From: Enterovibrio sp. JCM 19048
GTDB taxonomy: Bacteria > Pseudomonadota > Gammaproteobacteria > Enterobacterales > Vibrionaceae
NCBI GenBank assembly: GCA_001310415.1
Contig: BAXE01000010.1
Location: 1-64,000 of the forward strand
Length of the DNA stretch: 64,000 nt
Direction: 5' to 3'
Position 1 is the stretch's first letter. Each line of letters starts with the position of its first letter. The notes under the pieces are model-generated. The model was given only the letters and a program-made list of their open reading frames with translations, had not been told where the DNA came from and did no database searches. The position numbers and the translations under genes were made by a program. Below, piece by piece: positions 3,954 through 28,930 of the stretch.

Positions 3954-4044
3954 TTGTCCACAGTTTTATTACGATCAACACTATATGTTGTGGATCCTTT
4001 CTTCTGATCCCACTTTATCAACGCAATCCACAGTCTTTTCCACA
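3954..4044. promoter_or_regulatory. Cluster of DnaA-box-like motifs between rpoH and glpE
   Basis: This 318-base gap without a gene holds the rpoH terminator and four TCCACA/TGTGGA motifs within 91 bases: TTGTCCACA (3954-3962), TGTGGATCC on the other strand sense (3989-3997), CAATCCACA (4024-4032) and TTTTCCACA (4036-4044). Only the last fits the relaxed DnaA box TTWTNCACA exactly. A small open frame at 3916-4140 shows no protein-like features. A -10-like TACAAT at 4107-4112 could serve glpE, but no good -35 partner was found. Confidence 0.35.
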
Positions 4045-4188
4045 GGTGGCGAAAAAGCATACAAAGCCCGTAACTTCTTCGTGGCAAGCTTAAGAAAAAA
4101 GTCATGTACAATGGAGCATTACAGGTTCCGGGCGCATTGAATGGCTCAAACCTTTGGATACTATGACGGAGTGGAAAGGGTATAACTC

Positions 4189-4521
4189 ATGGAACAATTT
4201 GCGCATATCTCTGTGACCGATGCTTTGGCAATGCTGGAAAGTGATGATCATCACGCTGTTATGGCGGACATCCGGGATCCTCAGTCATTTCAGCAATCTC
4301 ATCCACAGGGGGCATTTCACCTGACCAACGACACCCTGGTGCAGTTTACGCAAGAGGTGGATTACGACCAGCCCGTGCTGGTGATCTGTTACCATGGCAA
4401 CAGCAGTCAGGGCGCGGCACAATATCTTGTTAACCAAGGCTTTGAGCAGGTGTACAGTGTAGATGGTGGCTTTGCTGCCTGGCTTCGACAGGCTTTACCG
4501 GTAGCAGCAGGAACTGAATAA
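4189..4521 (+). CDS. glpE: Thiosulfate sulfurtransferase GlpE
   Basis: Single-domain rhodanese that moves sulfane sulfur from thiosulfate to cyanide or thiols such as thioredoxin; cytoplasmic. The 110-residue product has the active loop CYHGNSS with catalytic Cys67, and the rhodanese end motif [10 protein letters not shown]. Length matches E. coli GlpE (108). It is first in a glpE-glpG-glpR order, 18 bases before glpG, an arrangement shared with enterics although its link to glycerol metabolism is only positional. Frame intact. Confidence 0.95.
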
Positions 4522-5454: not shown

Positions 5455-6215
5455 GTGAAACAGATACAACGCCATCAGGAAATTCTCGACCTTGTCCGCA
5501 GCAAGGGGTATGTCAGCACCGATGATTTGGTGGCGCATTTTGATGTCAGCCCGCAGACAATCCGCCGCGATCTCAATGAACTGGCGACAGAAAACAAAAT
5601 CCGTCGCCAGCACGGCGGGGCCACCATTCCATCCAGCTCCGTCAATACGGCCTACAATGCGCGTAAAGAGATGCAGTTGCAGGCCAAAAACAGACTGGCG
5701 CAGGCGCTGGTCGCCCATATTCCTGACGGTGCGACCCTGTTTATCGATATCGGTACCACGCCGGAAGCTGTCGCACGTGCTTTGCTGAACCATCAGGATC
5801 TGCGTATTGTGACCAACAACCTCAATGCCGCCAGTATCCTGATGGCGAAAGAGGACTTTCGCATCATCATGGCGGGCGGCGAAGTGCGTAACCGTGACGG
5901 TGGCATTATGGGGGAAGCGACGCTGGACTTCGTCTCCCAGTTTCGTCTGGATTTCGGCATTCTCGGGATCAGCGGCATTGATCTTGACGGCAGTCTGCTG
6001 GACTTCGACTACCATGAGGTACGTGTCAAACAGGCGATCATGGAAAACAGCCGCTCTGTCCTCCTTGCGGCTGACCACACCAAGTTTGGCCGCAACGCAT
6101 GGTGAACGTGGGTAACCTGACCCAAATCGATCACCTGTTCCTGGATGCCCCCTTGCCTGAGCCCTTACAAGGGCTGCTTAAAGAAGCCGGGACACGGATT
6201 GAAGTGATCGGCTAA
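5455..6215 (+). CDS. glpR: Glycerol-3-phosphate regulon repressor GlpR (one frameshift)
   Basis: DeoR-family repressor released by glycerol-3-phosphate. The GTG start gives MKQIQRHQEILDLV, matching E. coli. The N-terminal helix-turn-helix reads YVSTDDLVAHFDVSPQTIRR and the sugar-phosphate domain contains LFIDIGTTPEAVA and FGILGISGIDLDGS. The frame ends early after KFGRNAW; adding one A near 6099 gives GRNAMVNVGNLTQIDHLFLD and a 253-residue protein ending at 6215. It probably binds the two operators found upstream of glpD just downstream. Confidence 0.94.
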
Positions 6216-6233
6216 CCGCATGCATTCAGTACT

Positions 6234-6256
6234 AAACCGCCGCAAGGCGGTTTTTT
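6234..6256 (+). terminator. Terminator after glpR
   Basis: AACCGCC, loop GCAA, GGCGGTT followed by TTTT, 20 bases after the glpR stop. Confidence 0.85.
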
Positions 6257-6293
6257 GTGCGCACATTTCGTGGAAATTTTCGTCATTTGATCA

Positions 6294-6322
6294 TTGGGTC
6301 TTGTGCTTTTCTGTACTAGAAT
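6294..6322 (+). promoter_or_regulatory. glpD promoter
   Basis: TTGGGT (6294-6299) and TAGAAT (6317-6322) with a 17-base spacer, 67 bases before glpD. The -10 overlaps the first GlpR operator, as expected for repression. Confidence 0.6.
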
Positions 6323-6359
6323 GTTCGAAATCGAAAGTTAAATGCTCGAATGAGCGCCT
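6320..6359 (+). promoter_or_regulatory. Tandem GlpR operators before glpD
   Basis: Two adjacent 20-base sites, 6320-6339 (AATGTTCGAAATCGAAAGTT) and 6340-6359 (AAATGCTCGAATGAGCGCCT), resemble the E. coli GlpR operator pattern ATGTTCGNTANCGAACAT. The first is the better match. Their end-to-end packing suggests cooperative binding. Confidence 0.7.
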
Positions 6360-6389
6360 GATGTGAGCGTAACGCAATAGGGAGATGGC

Positions 6390-7928
6390 ATGGAAACGAA
6401 AGAGCTGCAGGGCAATAACGACATTCTCGACTTGATTGTGGTCGCGGCGGGATTAATGGGGCGGGTATTGCAGCAGACGCCAGTGGCCGGGGTCTGCGTG
6501 TCGGACTGTATGATGCTGCCGACTTTGCTTCTGCCACGTCATCTGCCAGCTCCAAACTTATCCATGGCGGTTTGCGTTATCTTGAGCACTATGAATTCCG
6601 GCTGGTCAGCGAAGCGTTGGCTGAGCGGGAAGTGATCCTGAAAAAAGCCCCGCACCTTGCCTGGCCAATGCGTTTTCGCCTGCCGCACCGCCCCCATTTG
6701 CGTCCTGCGTGGATGATCCGTATCGGCCTTTTCCTCTACGACCATCTGGGCAAGCGCACTACATTACCGGCCAGTAAAGGTATCCGTTTCGGTGAGGATT
6801 CAGTGCTGAAGCCAAACATCACCAAAGGCTTTGAATACTCGGATTGCTGGGTGGATGATGCGCGTTTGGTGATCCTGAATGTCATGGATGCGGCGGAGCG
6901 CGGCGCGGAGGTGCGCAACCGCAGTAAAGTCACCCGTGCCGAACGCAACAATGGCCTTTGGGAAGTGACGGTTCATGATGAAATTGCCAACACTACTTTC
7001 ACCCGCAAAGCTAAAGTTCTGGTTAACGCAGCGGGTCCTTGGGTCAAAGAATTTTTCGATCAGGCACATCACTCAAATCCCCGCGTGGTATCCGCTTAAT
7101 CAAGGGCAGCCATATCGTGGTGCCACGGGTACACAATGAACCGAGTGCTATATCCTGCAAAACGAAGATGGGCGCATCGTCTTCGTGCTTCCGTATCTGG
7201 ATCGCTTTTCCGTGATTGGTACCACGGATGTCGAATACAAAGGCAACCCGCGCGATGTGGCGATTGAAGACAAAGAGGTCGAGTACCTTCTGAGCGTTTA
7301 CAACCAGCACTTCAAATCTCCCCTCAGCAGGAATGACGTAGTGTGGACATACAGCGGTGTGCGCCCGCTTTGTGATGATGAGTCAGACTCACCGCAGGCG
7401 ATCACGCGCGACTACACGCTGGAGCTGGAAGACAATGGCGGTGATGCACCGATCCTTTCTATTTTCGGCGGTAAACTGACCACCTACCGTAAACTGGCGC
7501 GAGCTGCAGTGAACAAGCTGTCGCCGTTCTTTGCTGATATGGGAGAGGACTGGACGGCCAACAGCGCTTTGCCGGGCGGTGAGGGGATTTCCTCTGCCGC
7601 GGACGTGGAGAAAAAACTGGCTGCGACCTTCCCATGGATGGATACCTTTACTGCGCAGCGTCTGGCGACCACCTATGGCAGCCGTGTCTGGGTTTGGCTG
7701 GATGGCGTGAAAGATGCGTCAGAGCTTGGGCAGTCTTTTGGTCACGGACTGACTGCGCGGGAAGTGGATTATCTGGTGGCGGCAGAATATGTGCAGACGG
7801 CAGAGGATTTGCTGTGGCGCCGCACCAAGCTGGGATTGTACCTCTCCAAACAGGAGCAACAAGCTGTGGCCGATTATCTTGTAAGCCATCATGCGACCAT
7901 TGCTGACAGCGCGACAATACCCGCCTGA
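6390..7928 (+). CDS. glpD: Aerobic glycerol-3-phosphate dehydrogenase GlpD (three frameshifts)
   Basis: FAD enzyme on the inner membrane face that oxidises glycerol-3-phosphate to dihydroxyacetone phosphate and reduces ubiquinone. After correction the N-terminus carries the FAD motif VVGGGINGAGIAAD, then SKLIHGGLRYLEHYEFRLVS, WMIRIGLF, VWTYSGVRPLCDD and FGGKLTTYRKLA, all GlpD hallmarks. One base is missing near 6443 (GG to G), near 7089 (GGG to GG, restoring GIRLIKGSHIVVPR) and near 7148 (restoring AYILQNEDGRIVF). Corrected length is 513 residues; E. coli has 501, the extra being a short insert after METKEL. Preceded by GlpR operators. Confidence 0.94.
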
Positions 7929-23993: not shown

Positions 23994-24673
23994 CTAATCC
24001 GCTGGTGGCGGGGTGCGGCAAACACAATATATATCGATGCGTTTTACACCGTGCCCGCGCAGCAGGCGGCAGAGCTGGTTGAGTGTGGTGCCGGTGGTGA
24101 CAATATCGTCGACAAGGGCAATGTGCTCAGGCATTACCCCTTTGATTGAAAAAGCGTTATTGAGATTGCTTAACCGTGATTGTCGGTTCAATCCCTGCTG
24201 CTGGCGAGTGGCACGATCGCGTTTTAAGACATTGGCTCATATTGCACCTGCAACTGCCGCGCAAGGTGATGCGCCAGCACATTGCTGTGGTTAAAGCCGC
24301 GCCGCCAATGCCGTTGCCATTGCATGGGAACCGGTAGCAATACTGGCGCAGGTTGGTCGATTTCTGTCGCCAGCAGTTTGGCAAGAGAGGGCGCAAGCCA
24401 GTAGTGTCCCTGATACTTAAAGCGGTGCAACAGCTTGTCGTAGGGAAAGGTGTAACTGCTGACGCAACTGAGGCTATTCCACAAAGGGGGCGATTTCAGG
24501 CAGCGGCCACAGCTCTCCATTTCATAGGGTGTCGGTAAACCGCAGTGCAAACAGCGCGGGGGACGCGGCAAATTCGCGTGGCAGCTTTTGCACCAGGGGT
24601 ATTGATGCTGATCCAACCTGTGATGACAAAGCTGACAGCGTAGCGGCAGGGCACGTAAGATAGCGCTGAACAT
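23994..24673 (-). CDS. gntX: ComF/GntX-family phosphoribosyltransferase-like protein (one frameshift)
   Basis: ComF-family proteins are linked to DNA uptake and use of DNA as nutrient. 226 residues from ATG at 24673 (MFSAILRALPLRCQLCHHRL). An N-terminal zinc-finger-like region has CQLC, CKSC, CLHC and CGRC pairs; the C-terminal phosphoribosyl pyrophosphate loop is ALVDDIVTTGTTL. A base is missing near 24227; correction gives EPMVLKRDRATRQQQGLNRQ. A longer in-frame start at 24724 would overlap bioH and is not preferred. Divergent from bioH, as in E. coli. Confidence 0.88.
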
Positions 24674-24713
24674 CAAGGATATGCTTGTTGATAGACGAAT
24701 GTAGGCAGTGTAA

Positions 24714-25496
24714 ATGACGACCAAACTCTACTGGCACACGGAAGGCCAAGGCTCCGATCTGATTCTCATTCATGGCTGGGGGATGAACAGTGCCGTGTGG
24801 CAAAACATCCTGCCGGCTCTCACGCCGCACTACCGCGTCCATTGTGTGGACTTGCCCGGCTACGGTTTCAGCCAACCCACTGACAGCTTCTCGCTTGAGG
24901 AAATGGCACAGTGCTTGCTTAATAATTCACCGCAGGGATCGGTATGGGCCGGTTGGTCGCTGGGGGGCATGATTGCCACCCAAGCCGCACTTCTCGCACC
25001 TGAGCGTGTGAAAGGGTTGGTGACCATTGCCAGCTCTCCCCGGTTTGCTGCAGAACACGGATGGCGAGGGATTAAACCCGAGGTATTGCAGGCGTTTACG
25101 AAACAGTTGGCTGACGACTTCACGACGACAGTTGAACGTTTTATGGCGCTTCAGGCAATGGGGAGCCCAACAGCAAGGCAAGATATTAAGTGGTTAAAGC
25201 AGGCGGTCCTCTCTCACCCGTCGCCGCAACCCGAGGCGCTTAGCGCTGGCCTTAATATTCTTGCCGATGCTGACTTGCGGCCCCGATTGCGTGAAATCTC
25301 AATGCCTTGGCTGAGAATGTACGGTCGGCTGGATGGCCTTGTGCCGGTAAAAGTGGCACAAGAGCTAGATGTTCTGGCACCGCAGTCGCAGCGGCAAATT
25401 TTTGCCAACGCATCGCACGCACCGTTTATCTCGGATCCCGACCATTTTTCCCAGGCGTTACTGGCCTTTTGCGGAGAATGTTTGCCGTCCTGTTAA
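24714..25496 (+). CDS. bioH: Pimeloyl-ACP methyl ester carboxylesterase BioH
   Basis: Alpha/beta hydrolase that removes the methyl ester to release pimeloyl-ACP for biotin synthesis. 260 residues with the oxyanion region LILIHGWGMNSAVWQ, the nucleophile in WAGWSLGGMIA (Ser near residue 82), the acid Asp in GRLDGLVP and the catalytic His in ANASHAPFISDP. Length matches E. coli (256). No frameshift. Positioned divergently from gntX. Confidence 0.95.
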   Translation: MTTKLYWHTEGQGSDLILIHGWGMNSAVWQNILPALTPHYRVHCVDLPGYGFSQPTDSFSLEEMAQCLLNNSPQGSVWAGWSLGGMIATQAALLAPERVKGLVTIASSPRFAAEHGWRGIKPEVLQAFTKQLADDFTTTVERFMALQAMGSPTARQDIKWLKQAVLSHPSPQPEALSAGLNILADADLRPRLREISMPWLRMYGRLDGLVPVKVAQELDVLAPQSQRQIFANASHAPFISDPDHFSQALLAFCGECLPSC

Positions 25497-25527: not shown

Positions 25528-25554
25528 TAAATTTTATACCGAAGCTGCCGATAC
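25528..25554 (+). promoter_or_regulatory. Near-consensus sigma-28 (FliA) flagellar promoter
   Basis: TAAATTTT (25528-25535), an 11-base spacer and GCCGATAC (25547-25554) match the FliA consensus TAAAGTTT-N11-GCCGATAA at 14 of 16 positions with exact spacing. It lies 40 bases before the ATG of the small gene at 25595 and after the bioH stop, so it is placed correctly to drive that gene. Matched by eye from the known enteric consensus; no transcript evidence. Confidence 0.7.
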
Positions 25555-25594
25555 TTTATTCAAGTTACTTGCTATGGAATCAGGAGAGACCATA

Positions 25595-25927
25595 ATGAAT
25601 ATAGGTAACGTTGGGTATTCTCAGAATCCTTACGCCAAACCCACGTCTGTGAACAACGCAGCAAAAGCGGAGCAGGTGCAGGGAAATGAGAATGCAAAAC
25701 AGTCTTACGCACAGGTCGCCAAGGAAGTGTCTGAAGGTAAGGCTGTTAACAAAACAACGGAAGCCGAAGGCAAGACATCTTCGTCTCAAGTTGAGTCTTT
25801 CACTTATGGGGCACTGGGCATGGACCATCCCGATGAAGTGAAAAGCAACGACGATGCTGCGTATTCCGCCGGTCAGGTGCTGTCAGCACTGGGTACCATT
25901 GGTGGACTGATCGCAGTATTGGTCTAG
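25595..25927 (+). CDS. Uncharacterised small protein behind a sigma-28-type promoter
   Basis: I do not recognise this family. ATG at 25595 follows CAGGAGAG; a start at 25574 is possible but worse placed. The 110-residue product has no Cys, no N-terminal signal or long hydrophobic helix. It is rich in Asn, Ala, Glu and Lys, with NPYAKP near the start, and ends in a mildly hydrophobic tail (YSAGQVLSALGTIGGLIAVLV). The FliA-like promoter upstream suggests expression with late flagellar or chemotaxis genes. A second unknown gene follows after 97 bases and may belong to the same transcript. Confidence 0.65.
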   Translation: MNIGNVGYSQNPYAKPTSVNNAAKAEQVQGNENAKQSYAQVAKEVSEGKAVNKTTEAEGKTSSSQVESFTYGALGMDHPDEVKSNDDAAYSAGQVLSALGTIGGLIAVLV

Positions 25928-25956
25928 TTTCGCTATAGAGATATAGCACGCGCATT

Positions 25957-25973
25957 CGCGGGGTTTCCCCGCG
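25957..25973 (+). other. GC-rich hairpin between two unknown genes
   Basis: CGCGGGG TTT CCCCGCG, 29 bases after the stop of the gene at 25595 and without a T-run. It may stabilise the upstream mRNA end or reduce read-through to the gene at 26025. Confidence 0.5.
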
Positions 25974-26024
25974 CTATGCTCGCTGGCGACAAGGCCTTCG
26001 GTCGATGTTTGGAGTAACATTGGC

Positions 26025-26498
26025 ATGAACATTTCGCCCGCAAACGTCAGCATACCGGCTGTCGTACCGTCAGTGAACCCGCCAACGGAGCAAGTTGCGC
26101 GGGAAAATCGCGTGCGCGAAAAAATTGTCCCTGCACGCCAACCCAATGCCAGCGCCGAAGAAAAGCCGGTTACACAGGAAGAGAAGCAACTTCGCAAGCC
26201 TTCCTGGGATGCTTCTGAGCATCCGGATTACGCCGAGCTCTCCCGCCAGCCCCGTCAGTTTGACGGCGCGCAGTTTGCCGCCCATGAAACACTCAGCCAG
26301 CTCTCATCGATGCTGTCTAGCGACGCCTATGTGCCGCAAAATGAAAACGGCTATGCGATGAAACTCAAGTTGCCGAAGGAAGTGCTGGATAAAATCGAAG
26401 CCCTGAAAGACTCCCAGCGAACGGGTGCTGTGGTGGCGATGCGCTACCAGCAATCGTCGGTGGCCAATGTGCCGTCAGAAGTGCTGATCGTTATCTAG
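26025..26498 (+). CDS. Uncharacterised protein downstream of the sigma-28-linked gene
   Basis: Not recognised. 157 residues from ATG at 26025 (GGAG nearby upstream). The first ~60 residues are Pro/Glu/Lys-rich and probably disordered (SIPAVVPSVNPPTEQVAREN). The C-terminal half looks folded (AAHETLSQLSSMLSSDAYVP, then LKLPKEVLDKIEALKDSQ). No signal, membrane segment or Cys. It is followed by a terminator, so it likely ends the transcript that may begin at the FliA-like promoter. Function unknown. Confidence 0.65.
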   Translation: MNISPANVSIPAVVPSVNPPTEQVARENRVREKIVPARQPNASAEEKPVTQEEKQLRKPSWDASEHPDYAELSRQPRQFDGAQFAAHETLSQLSSMLSSDAYVPQNENGYAMKLKLPKEVLDKIEALKDSQRTGAVVAMRYQQSSVANVPSEVLIVI

Positions 26499-26510: not shown

Positions 26511-26545
26511 AAAAAACAGCGCCGGTTGGCGCTGTTTTTGTTTTT
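26511..26545. terminator. Terminator between the unknown pair and tex
   Basis: AAAACAGCGCC GGTT GGCGCTGTTTTT with flanking A and T runs, between convergent genes. Confidence 0.88.
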
Positions 26546-26562: not shown

Positions 26563-28892
26563 TTAGTTGCGTTTGGCTTTGGCAAACGCATCGGCAAAGG
26601 CACCGCCAAACGGCGATGGGGCATTGTTGCCACCGCGCGGTTTGTCGCTGCGGTTGTTGCCACTAAAGCTGCGTTCCTGATTACGTGGGCGTGGTTCGCG
26701 TGCCGGTTTGCTGTCTGAACCCGGCTCCTCGCTCAGGCGCATCGACAGAGCAATACGCTTGCGCTGCAAGTCCACTTCCATCACTTTCACTTTCACCACG
26801 TCACCGGCTTTCACCACTTCGCGCGGATCGGAGATGAATTTGTCGGAAAGGGCGGAAATGTGCACCAGACCATCCTGATGCACGCCAACATCGACGAACG
26901 CGCCGAAATTGGTCACGTTGGTGATCACACCTTCCAGCACCATGCCCGGGATCAGTCTTTCACTTCGTTCACGCCATCGGCAAAGGTCGCGGTTTTGAAT
27001 TCTGGACGCGGGTCGCGACCCGGTTTGCCAAGTTCAGCCAGAATGTCGGTCACGGTTGGGATACCGAAGGTATCGTCTGCGTAATCCGACGCTTTCAGGG
27101 CGCGCAGGAAGTCGAAATTGCCAATCATGGCATCCACCGCCTTGCCGGATTTCTCTGCAATGCGTTTGACGACCGGATACGCTTCCGGGTGCACCGCTGA
27201 GCCGTCGAGCGGGTTTTTGCCGTTCATCACGCGCAGGAAGCCTGCACACTGTTCGAATGCTTTTGGCCCCAAACGCGGCACTTTCAGCAGGGTTTTACGG
27301 TCTTCAAAACGGCCGTTTTCATCTCGGAAGGCAACGATATTGGCGGCCATGGTGGTCGACAGGCCTGCCACACGGGTCAGGAGCGCTGCCGAGGCACTGT
27401 TCACGTCCACACCGACGGCGTTTACACAATCTTCGACGACCGCATCCAGACGTTTCGCCAGTTGGCTTTGGCTTACATCGTGCTGGTACTGGCCCACACC
27501 GATGGATTTCGGATCGATTTTCACCAGCTCTGCCAGTGGGTCTTGCAGCCGGCGGGCGATAGAAACCGCGCCGCGCAGCGACACGTCGAGCCCCGGGAAT
27601 TCTGCTGCCGCCAGCTCTGATGCCGAGTAAACCGACGCACCGGCTTCGCTGACCATCACAGTCTGGATTTTCTCACCGGCGTCTTTAAGCATGCCTGCGA
27701 CAAAAGCGTCGGTTTCACGGGAAGCGGTGCCGTTGCCGATGGCAATCAAGTCCACGCCGTGTTTTTTCACCAGCGCCATCACCACGCGCGCTGATTCCGC
27801 AATCTTGTTCTGCGGCGGGGTCGGGTAGATGGTGGCGGTATCTAAAAGCTTACCTGTGTTGTCGACCACGGCCACTTTACAGCCGGTGCGAAGCCTGGGT
27901 CGATACCCAGGGTGCAGCGCGGGCCAGCAGGTGCTGCCATCAGCAAGTCTTTCAGGTTGTCGGCAAAGACCTTGATGCGTCGGTTTCTGCTATCTCGCGC
28001 AGGTTGCCCATCAGCTCGGTTTCCATGTGCATCAAAATCTTGATACGCCATGCAAAGCTCACCACCTGCTTGCGCCAGCGGTCTGCAGCGGCAGAGCCGA
28101 TGTTTACACCGAAGTGGTCACAGATAATGGTTTCGCAGTATGAGCCGGTAGATTTTTCATCCTGACCCGGGTCGGCATTCAGTGACAGCTGCAGGATGCC
28201 TTCGTTGCGGCCACGGAACATGGCCAGCGCGCGGTGCGACGGCACTTTGCTCAGCAGTTCATCGTGGGTGAAGTAGTCTTTAAACTTCGCGCCTTCCTCT
28301 TCCTTGCCTGCCACTACGCGGGACTGGATTTCCGCATGCTGGTTCAGGTGACGGCGGATTTTATCTAGCAGCGCGGCATCTTCGGCGAACTGTTCCATCA
28401 GGATGGCACGGGCGCCGTCCAGCACGGCTTTGGTATCGGCAAAGCCTGCTTCAGCGTTGAAGTATTTCGCCGCTTCCAATTCCGGGTCGTGATCAGGCTG
28501 TTCCCACAGCAGGGTCGCCAGCGGTTCGATACCGGCTTCAATGGCGATCTGGCCTTTGGTTCGGCGCTTGGGTTTGTACGGTAGGTACAAGTCTTCCAGA
28601 CGGTTTTTGCTGTCAGCGTCGAGGATGTCTTTTTTCAGCGCGTCGGTCAGTTTGCCTTGCTCATCAATGGATTTGAGGATCACCTGGCGGCGGTCTTCCA
28701 GTTCACGCAGGTAACCTAAACGTGATTCGAGATTTCGCAGCTGGGTGTCATCCAGCCGTTGGTGACCTCTTTACGGTAGCGGGCGATAAACGGAACCGTG
28801 TTGCCATCATCAAGCAGGGTAACCGCAGCAGTTACCTGCGCTTCGCGGACATTCAGTTCATTGGCGATTTGTTGGTAAATGGAAGTAGTCAT
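26563..28892 (-). CDS. tex: RNA-binding transcription accessory protein Tex (four frameshifts)
   Basis: Conserved S1-domain protein related to Spt6. ATG at 28892 gives [20 protein letters not shown]. The text follows E. coli Yhg[41 protein letters not shown], the RuvC-like part [12 protein letters not shown], helix-hairpin-helix [16 protein letters not shown]1 domain [17 protein letters not shown] and a basic Gly/Arg tail. Lost bases near 28754, 27976, 27890 and 26956 (each CC to C or AA to A) restore 777 residues (E. coli 773). Four breaks in one gene could suggest decay, but each is a single homopolymer loss and all domains are intact. Confidence 0.93.
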
Positions 28893-28930
28893 GCTGTTCC
28901 TTGAATGCGTTATCACGCCGGGGCGCGTTA

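Follow-up and report, generated by a model that had tools for sequence, protein, structure and literature searches.

In Vibrio, class IV genes, which depend on FliA, encode extra flagellins, stators, MotX, CheV and MCPs, and include flgM, according to the part of PMC6504787 that lists them. It is also reported there that FlgM exits V. cholerae through the sheathed flagellum, so that a route of export exists in sheathed vibrios. E. coli sites of the FliA kind have been tabulated in PMC4183435, in which promoters such as those of flxA and modA belong to genes with no obvious flagellar role. SprA-related proteins, putative zinc metalloproteases grouped in the family PF12118, form a separate set. 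One of these, CJM1_0395 of C. jejuni, was found, in two strains, in the supernatant of the wild type and not in that of the flgG mutant, as described in the relevant section of PMC5223770; that it depends on flgG does not by itself prove that the flagellum exports it directly. In PMC7284324, a table row also names an SprA-related protein of C. jejuni.

The window analysed here is the whole stretch of 64,000 nucleotides of contig 10 of the host genome, which measures 5.27 Mb and is 87.5% complete. Among the named records used (Grimontia, Enterovibrio, Veronia and Photobacterium), Grimontia and Enterovibrio are the closest to this genome. The window hosts two adjacent genes, located away from the flagellar clusters of the genome, flanked upstream by bioH and downstream, on the opposite strand, by an S1-domain end interpreted as tex. 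The locus is read here as an orphan FliA operon, in which one of the two genes occupies the SprA slot but has no protease. It is organized as follows:

25528..25554, plus strand: FliA (sigma-28) promoter-like site, TAAATTTT-N11-GCCGATAC, 14/16 matches, conserved before gene 1
25595..25927, plus strand: gene 1, 110 aa, unnamed family, an ORF with its ATG at 25595
25925..26024, plus strand: gene 1 stop codon and structured intergenic gap, with hairpins at 25932-25947 and 25957-25973 (z -3.7)
26000..26024, plus strand: hairpin whose loop carries GGAG, the Shine-Dalgarno of gene 2, reaching up to the start codon
26025..26498, plus strand: gene 2, 157 aa, with an N-terminal module common to SprA-related proteins, no HExxH, and an unnamed C-terminal part
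26512..26539, plus strand: intrinsic terminator, 12-pair stem and T run

The enteric FliA consensus is TAAAGTTT-N11-GCCGATAA, and the site in the window fits it at 14 of 16 positions. TAAATTTT starts at 25528, and is followed by the 11-nt spacer ATACCGAAGCT and by GCCGATAC, which ends at 25554, 40 nt before the ATG. The features distinguishing FliA class IV promoters, i.e. a TAAA-type -35, an 11-nt spacer and a GCCGATA-type -10, are all present. The motif with its exact spacing, the 40 nt to a 110-residue gene, the 157-residue gene and the terminator had all been pointed out in an earlier note on this DNA, and can be read directly in the letters. The 40-nt spacing is common to gene 1 and to the flgM gene of the same genome (identified by Pfam FlgM); the corresponding distances are 158 nt for a CheW-domain gene, which begins like CheV, and 179 nt for a flagellin gene. 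The gene pair resembles Vibrio class IV genes in promoter type, flgM-like spacing and presence tied to fliA, but differs in that it is not part of a flagellar cluster and is not named in the available part of PMC6504787. It resembles flxA and modA as a small FliA-driven unit away from flagellar clusters, as these are described in the section consulted of PMC4183435. The likeness is one of description; the families of gene 1 and gene 2 are, for their part, widely conserved.

Both ORFs look like real genes, because dN/dS values measured against eight relatives range from 0.11 to 0.34 for gene 1 and from 0.07 to 0.15 for gene 2. The neighbouring tex reading (minus strand, 26563-28916) is broken into ORFs of 126, 307, 69, 243 and 66 aa, with changing frames, which denotes frameshifts or sequencing errors, the genome being 87.5% complete. 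The gntX gene (minus strand, 24157-24724) is apparently split over two frames, a further hint of sequence errors. Two sub-threshold Rfam matches, both on the minus strand, lie over the terminator.

Gene-1 loci were collected from a family search (30 best matches), from named records (25) and from other genomes. Three (L020, L052 and L080), in which gene 1 is frameshifted, were excluded from the upstream count. Among 64 distinct 150-nt upstream regions, 61 host a site with an 11-nt spacer matching at least 12 of the 16 consensus positions, and the remaining three score 10-11; in 27 of the 61 the site is located exactly 40 nt before gene 1. The 64 regions are not independent, and were therefore collapsed at 80% identity to 37, 34 of which carry a site of at least 12/16. 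A control scan of ORFs of at least 150 aa in 60 loci gave 4 positives out of 312; two of these were gene 1, which leaves 2/310. The search of the motif upstream of orthologues, proposed in the earlier note, therefore bore out its conservation, which extends to gene 2 loci lacking gene 1 and to loci outside the family, as detailed below. Frameshifted copies of gene 1 are found in Enterovibrio coralii (L080) and in genome G081, probably the same species; gene 2 is intact in both.

Genera are denoted by handles, of which g12, g7 and g10 presumably correspond to Vibrio, Photobacterium and Aliivibrio, respectively. In g12, gene 1 is located elsewhere than in the bioH locus: bioH, nfuA, gntX, tex, greB and ompR were found in none of 20 gene-1 loci of 8.3 kb each. 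At these loci ACAAGTTT-N11 is found in 17/20, and G(C/T)CGATA in 20/20, 23-45 nt before the ATG. Sites are weaker at the two g10 gene-1 loci, and score 12/16 at 83 nt and 11/16 at 91 nt. Relatives of gene 1 also occur elsewhere in the order, in three further families. These provide an independent test, since the search profile was built from proteins. Of 15 relatives found, all at unrelated loci, 13 are preceded by a site: 11 have at least 12/16 with N11 at 30-35 nt, one has N10 at 34 nt, and one is at 77 nt; no FliA site was found at the other two loci (L175, L178). At one locus of family f12 (L169), some 1.5 kb separate the gene-1 relative (3975-4337) from a FlgL-like ORF (5886-7382), the first 60 residues of which match Flagellin_N below cut-off.

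When gene 2 is linked behind gene 1, no separate site precedes it, the best scores within 300 nt being 8-11/16. In g12, where gene 2 stands alone after bioH, G(C/T)CGATA is found 54-96 nt before the ATG in 30/30 loci, and at least 12/16 positions match within 150 nt in 26/30. A further set of 20 gene-2 loci came from genomes without gene 1. Six of these have sites of 14-15/16 at 57-126 nt; seven carry GTCGATAT at 53-55 nt, but their -35 is weaker (10-11/16); in three the site falls inside bioH, and is found solely at 263 nt (two loci, 13/16) or solely at 309 nt (one locus); none was found at L184, L196, L198 and L200. Two g10 gene-2 loci similarly have a 13/16 site solely at 243-250 nt, inside bioH. 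Judging from these upstream regions, when the two genes are parted each usually retains a FliA-type site of its own.

The gap separating the two genes folds better than shuffled sequences in six stretches from genera in which the genes are linked (z from -3.2 to -5.9). Its last hairpin exposes GGAG in the loop, and ends at the gene-2 start codon. There are 35 distinct linked leaders, and in 29 of them seven or eight of the eight pairs can form, as they do in 10% of shuffles; the leaders without hairpin are L032, L033, L034, L067, L092 and L093. Solo gene-2 leaders form the hairpin in 13/47 cases, against 16% of shuffles, and are regarded as no better than these; the hairpin belongs therefore to the linked arrangement. 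In 22 leaders picked for showing the hairpin, 96.6% of cells pair, a figure inflated by this choice, and double changes, less affected by it, occur at 5/8 pairs (20 cells); pairing falls to 18-57% when the partner is slid. Covariation over the gap is weak inside Grimontia/Enterovibrio, where double changes were found at 2/29 pairs. GGA is located in or at the loop in 27 of the 29 hairpin-forming linked leaders, and few loops fit ANGGAN. By analogy, CsrA is a natural candidate regulator of the gene-2 leader, which would fit its known ligands in part: in most linked leaders the loop that overlaps the Shine-Dalgarno contains GGA, as in the CsrA-controlled leaders described in the relevant part of PMC7652899, but the gene-2 stem has at least 8 pairs and the loops are mostly not ANGGAN.

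A profile built on 14 gene-2 proteins detected 17 matches outside Vibrionaceae, all restricted to N-terminal parts; 16 were examined, G328 being left out. Twelve of these relatives are long (273-348 aa) and carry HExxH, and four are short (143-163 aa), one of which (L158) also has an HExxH string. Pfam SprA-related was matched by 3/3 long relatives submitted and by 0/2 short ones, and the PF12118 model detected members in 5/5 genomes of the long type, in 0/2 of the short type and in 0/4 Vibrionaceae tested alongside. All 16 relatives are located behind bioH and share its strand, at 54-640 nt from where the bioH match ends; in 11 of them tex lies beyond the SprA-slot gene (the exceptions are L146, L147, L149, L154 and L159). 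Profile comparison (hhalign) aligns gene 2 to the long SprA-related profile over residues 1-74 (probability 97.3, E 2.2e-11), and to the short relatives over residues 1-56 (probability 98.4); homology is confined to the N-terminus. The N-terminal region and the locus together argue for common ancestry of gene 2 and SprA-related genes.

PF12118 was matched by 0/14 gene-2 members and found in 0/197 Vibrionaceae genomes, and HExxH is missing in all 52 distinct gene-2 proteins, against 12/12 long relatives having it. Gene 2 is accordingly not filed as SprA-related, because neither the family model nor the metal motif was found. From the bioH slot, the profile alignment and the lack of HExxH it is regarded as an occupant of the SprA slot that has the N-terminal module and no protease. 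The likeness to the PF12118 proteins therefore concerns the N-terminal ~70 residues and the slot after bioH, and the FliA site is a further difference, being found on the Vibrionaceae side only. No FliA site above background was detected before SprA-slot genes of other families (best 9-11/16, 16 loci), which suggests that the FliA promoter was added in Vibrionaceae. The earlier note had called both products nameless; this holds for gene 1, which has no family match, but not wholly for gene 2, which is the positional counterpart of SprA-related genes, devoid of the protease core. The link between gene 2 and SprA, based on profile and position, appears to be new in this analysis.

Three SprA-slot genes (L148, L151 and L152) have in common a GACAATAT box 40-47 nt upstream, closer in appearance to the -10 of a sigma-70 promoter. 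In families f6 and f11 the SprA slot is taken by short proteins that share this N-terminus with gene 2 (L157, L158, L146, L147); the protease core may have been lost more than once. The AlphaFold2 model of gene 2 is mostly without structure (mean pLDDT 54). Pfam, NCBIfam and PDB sequence searches gave nothing convincing for either family; matches to CK1gamma_C, pyrophosphatase, ATP synthase and the like were weak and scattered, and have been discarded. The tag VC2717, which we take to be that of gene 2 in V. cholerae, was found in no open-licence PMC paper, and no paper naming either family was retrieved from the same collection with the search words chosen.

The conserved sites support the reading of the pair as a late flagellar-class unit under FliA control. 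The explanation that best accounts for the whole, to which we assign a probability of roughly 60%, is that of a class IV FliA-dependent unit located outside the flagellar clusters, gated by a hairpin, whose products are late flagellar and either exported or active at the tip. After hook completion and the exit of FlgM, FliA-RNA polymerase would transcribe both genes into one mRNA that stops at 26512-26539, and the hairpin holding the gene-2 Shine-Dalgarno would gate translation of gene 2. The two products, small and predicted to be largely unfolded, might then pass out through the export channel of the flagellum or work at its end; this step is less sure than the preceding ones. Gene 2 would derive from an SprA-related protein whose catalytic core was lost and whose N-terminal module, serving export or targeting, was retained. 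As to mechanism, flagellar export comes first, though as yet unproven, and is put forward by analogy with CJM1_0395, a protein linked to gene 2 through the SprA-related family label. It is a tentative extension, rather doubtful at present, that the N-terminal module which gene 2 has in common with SprA-related proteases acts as a portable tag for flagellar export or targeting, and that, the core being lost, the remnant came under FliA and the hairpin as a late structural or signalling partner of gene 1 outside the cell or at the tip. If so, the SprA link would be a lead to the export signal of flagellar secretion, and gene 2 a case of a protease gene of which just the targeting end is left, now serving in a different regulon.

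Gene 1 proteins are conserved in the C-terminal part (GALGMDHP ... YSAGQ), which has a hydrophobic end at residues 92-110; this could serve membrane entry or packing in a helical assembly. No Pfam or NCBIfam family was matched above cut-off. The AlphaFold2 model has a helix at 89-109 and is mostly without structure (mean pLDDT 51); the low pLDDT of both models may result from shallow alignments. The two products could alternatively stay in the cell as late-class regulators or chaperones, on the model of the FlgM checkpoint or of chaperones of late proteins, and not be exported. Small size and predicted lack of fold of both proteins suit this possibility, as does a V(T/S)(L/I)S.E stretch, reminiscent of FlgM, found in the middle of many gene-1 proteins, and one of 15 gene-1 members is hit by the NCBIfam FlgM model (E 0.0079). 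Pfam FlgM, however, matches 0/15, and a profile comparison with the FlgM of the same genome gave a probability of 0.3, so that homology of gene 1 with FlgM finds no support; the SprA link of gene 2 moreover points outward. Retention of the products inside the cell is for these reasons considered unlikely. Gene 1 is like FlgM in being small, of FliA class and predicted unfolded, with a short FlgM-like stretch in the middle, but unlike it has neither Pfam match nor profile similarity, and a different C-terminus. We had taken VC1384 to be possibly gene 1. It is given as a class III gene in the parts available of PMC6504787 and PMC12607845, and was dropped, no identity with gene 1 being established; VC1384 appears also in a biofilm-matrix table of PMC3161981.

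The distribution of the two genes was compared with that of fliA in 197 Vibrionaceae genomes. Gene 2 was found in 182 and gene 1, by profile, in 148; FliA was above cut-off in 184. Two genomes below cut-off, G013 and G146, have strong partial FliA matches (2.7e-43 and 2.9e-55) and both genes, and were counted as FliA-positive; otherwise 2 of 13 below-cut-off genomes would keep both genes. In the other 11 the best FliA match is about 1e-29, interpreted as the level of other sigma factors. Gene 2 is present in 182/186 genomes with fliA and in 0/11 without (Fisher p 4e-15), gene 1 in 148/186 and 0/11 (9e-8); 10 of the 11 fliA-less genomes belong to g12, and the Fisher values overstate the support, because these genomes represent few lineages and few events. 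FliA genomes lacking gene 2 (G001, G002, G151 and G192) are small (1.1-2.7 Mb), and G151 is 74% complete; gene 1 is missing from 38 FliA genomes. Order-wide, among 295 genomes, gene 1 was found in 33/222 with FliA and the gene-2 type N-terminus in 36/222, and each in 0/73 without.

Loss along with fliA and retention of gene 2 in nearly all other Vibrionaceae examined suggest, from gene content, a tie to flagella. A pair controlled by FliA with no flagellar role, serving some other need of swimming cells as flxA and modA may do, is an even less likely alternative than retention of the products in the cell. Its location away from flagellar clusters fits such passengers, as does the wild-type motility of the CJM1_0395 mutant, recorded in the same section of PMC5223770. 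Against it stand the loss of the genes together with fliA and the retention of gene 2 in 182 of the other 186 genomes, a co-occurrence that a tie to expression alone would equally predict. The pair had been viewed in the earlier note as a stray late-class module: late it appears to be, given the conserved site and the absence from 11 fliA-less genomes, but it is not stray, since across the family it commonly accompanies flagella. Nothing in the analysis bears out the surface switch also envisaged there. Both families are kept by most flagellated Vibrionaceae examined, and gene 1 also by members of three other families. They seem to be absent from the flagellar parts list, and probably represent late components of the flagellum system that have escaped notice.

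In the 64-kb window, 0.017 sites of at least 14/16 are expected on both strands (one in 60 first-order Markov replicates), and one is observed. In the whole 5.27-Mb genome, 59 sites have no more than 3 mismatches, the reversed pattern giving 78, and 10 have up to 2 mismatches; the motif by itself is weak genome-wide, shows no excess and proves little. The site of gene 1 stands above chance because it is conserved. That the motif is a meaningless chance match, as the lack of excess over the reversed control could suggest, is highly improbable, and was discarded because the site is conserved in its position in independent loci and families, as checked with matched controls, and because of co-loss with fliA.

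The 10 best sites (up to 2 mismatches) include those of flgM, the CheW-domain gene and flagellin. The best FliA-like site of the genome, 15/16, is located at L223 1501-1527 (C11:14325-14351), 51 nt before a 206-aa ORF, which has a signal-peptide-like start and no Pfam match for the first 80 residues. At L224 (C4:90192-90218, minus strand) TCAAGCTT-N11-GCCGATAA is found 29 nt before a charged ORF of 61 aa lacking Pfam matches, possibly another small FliA gene.
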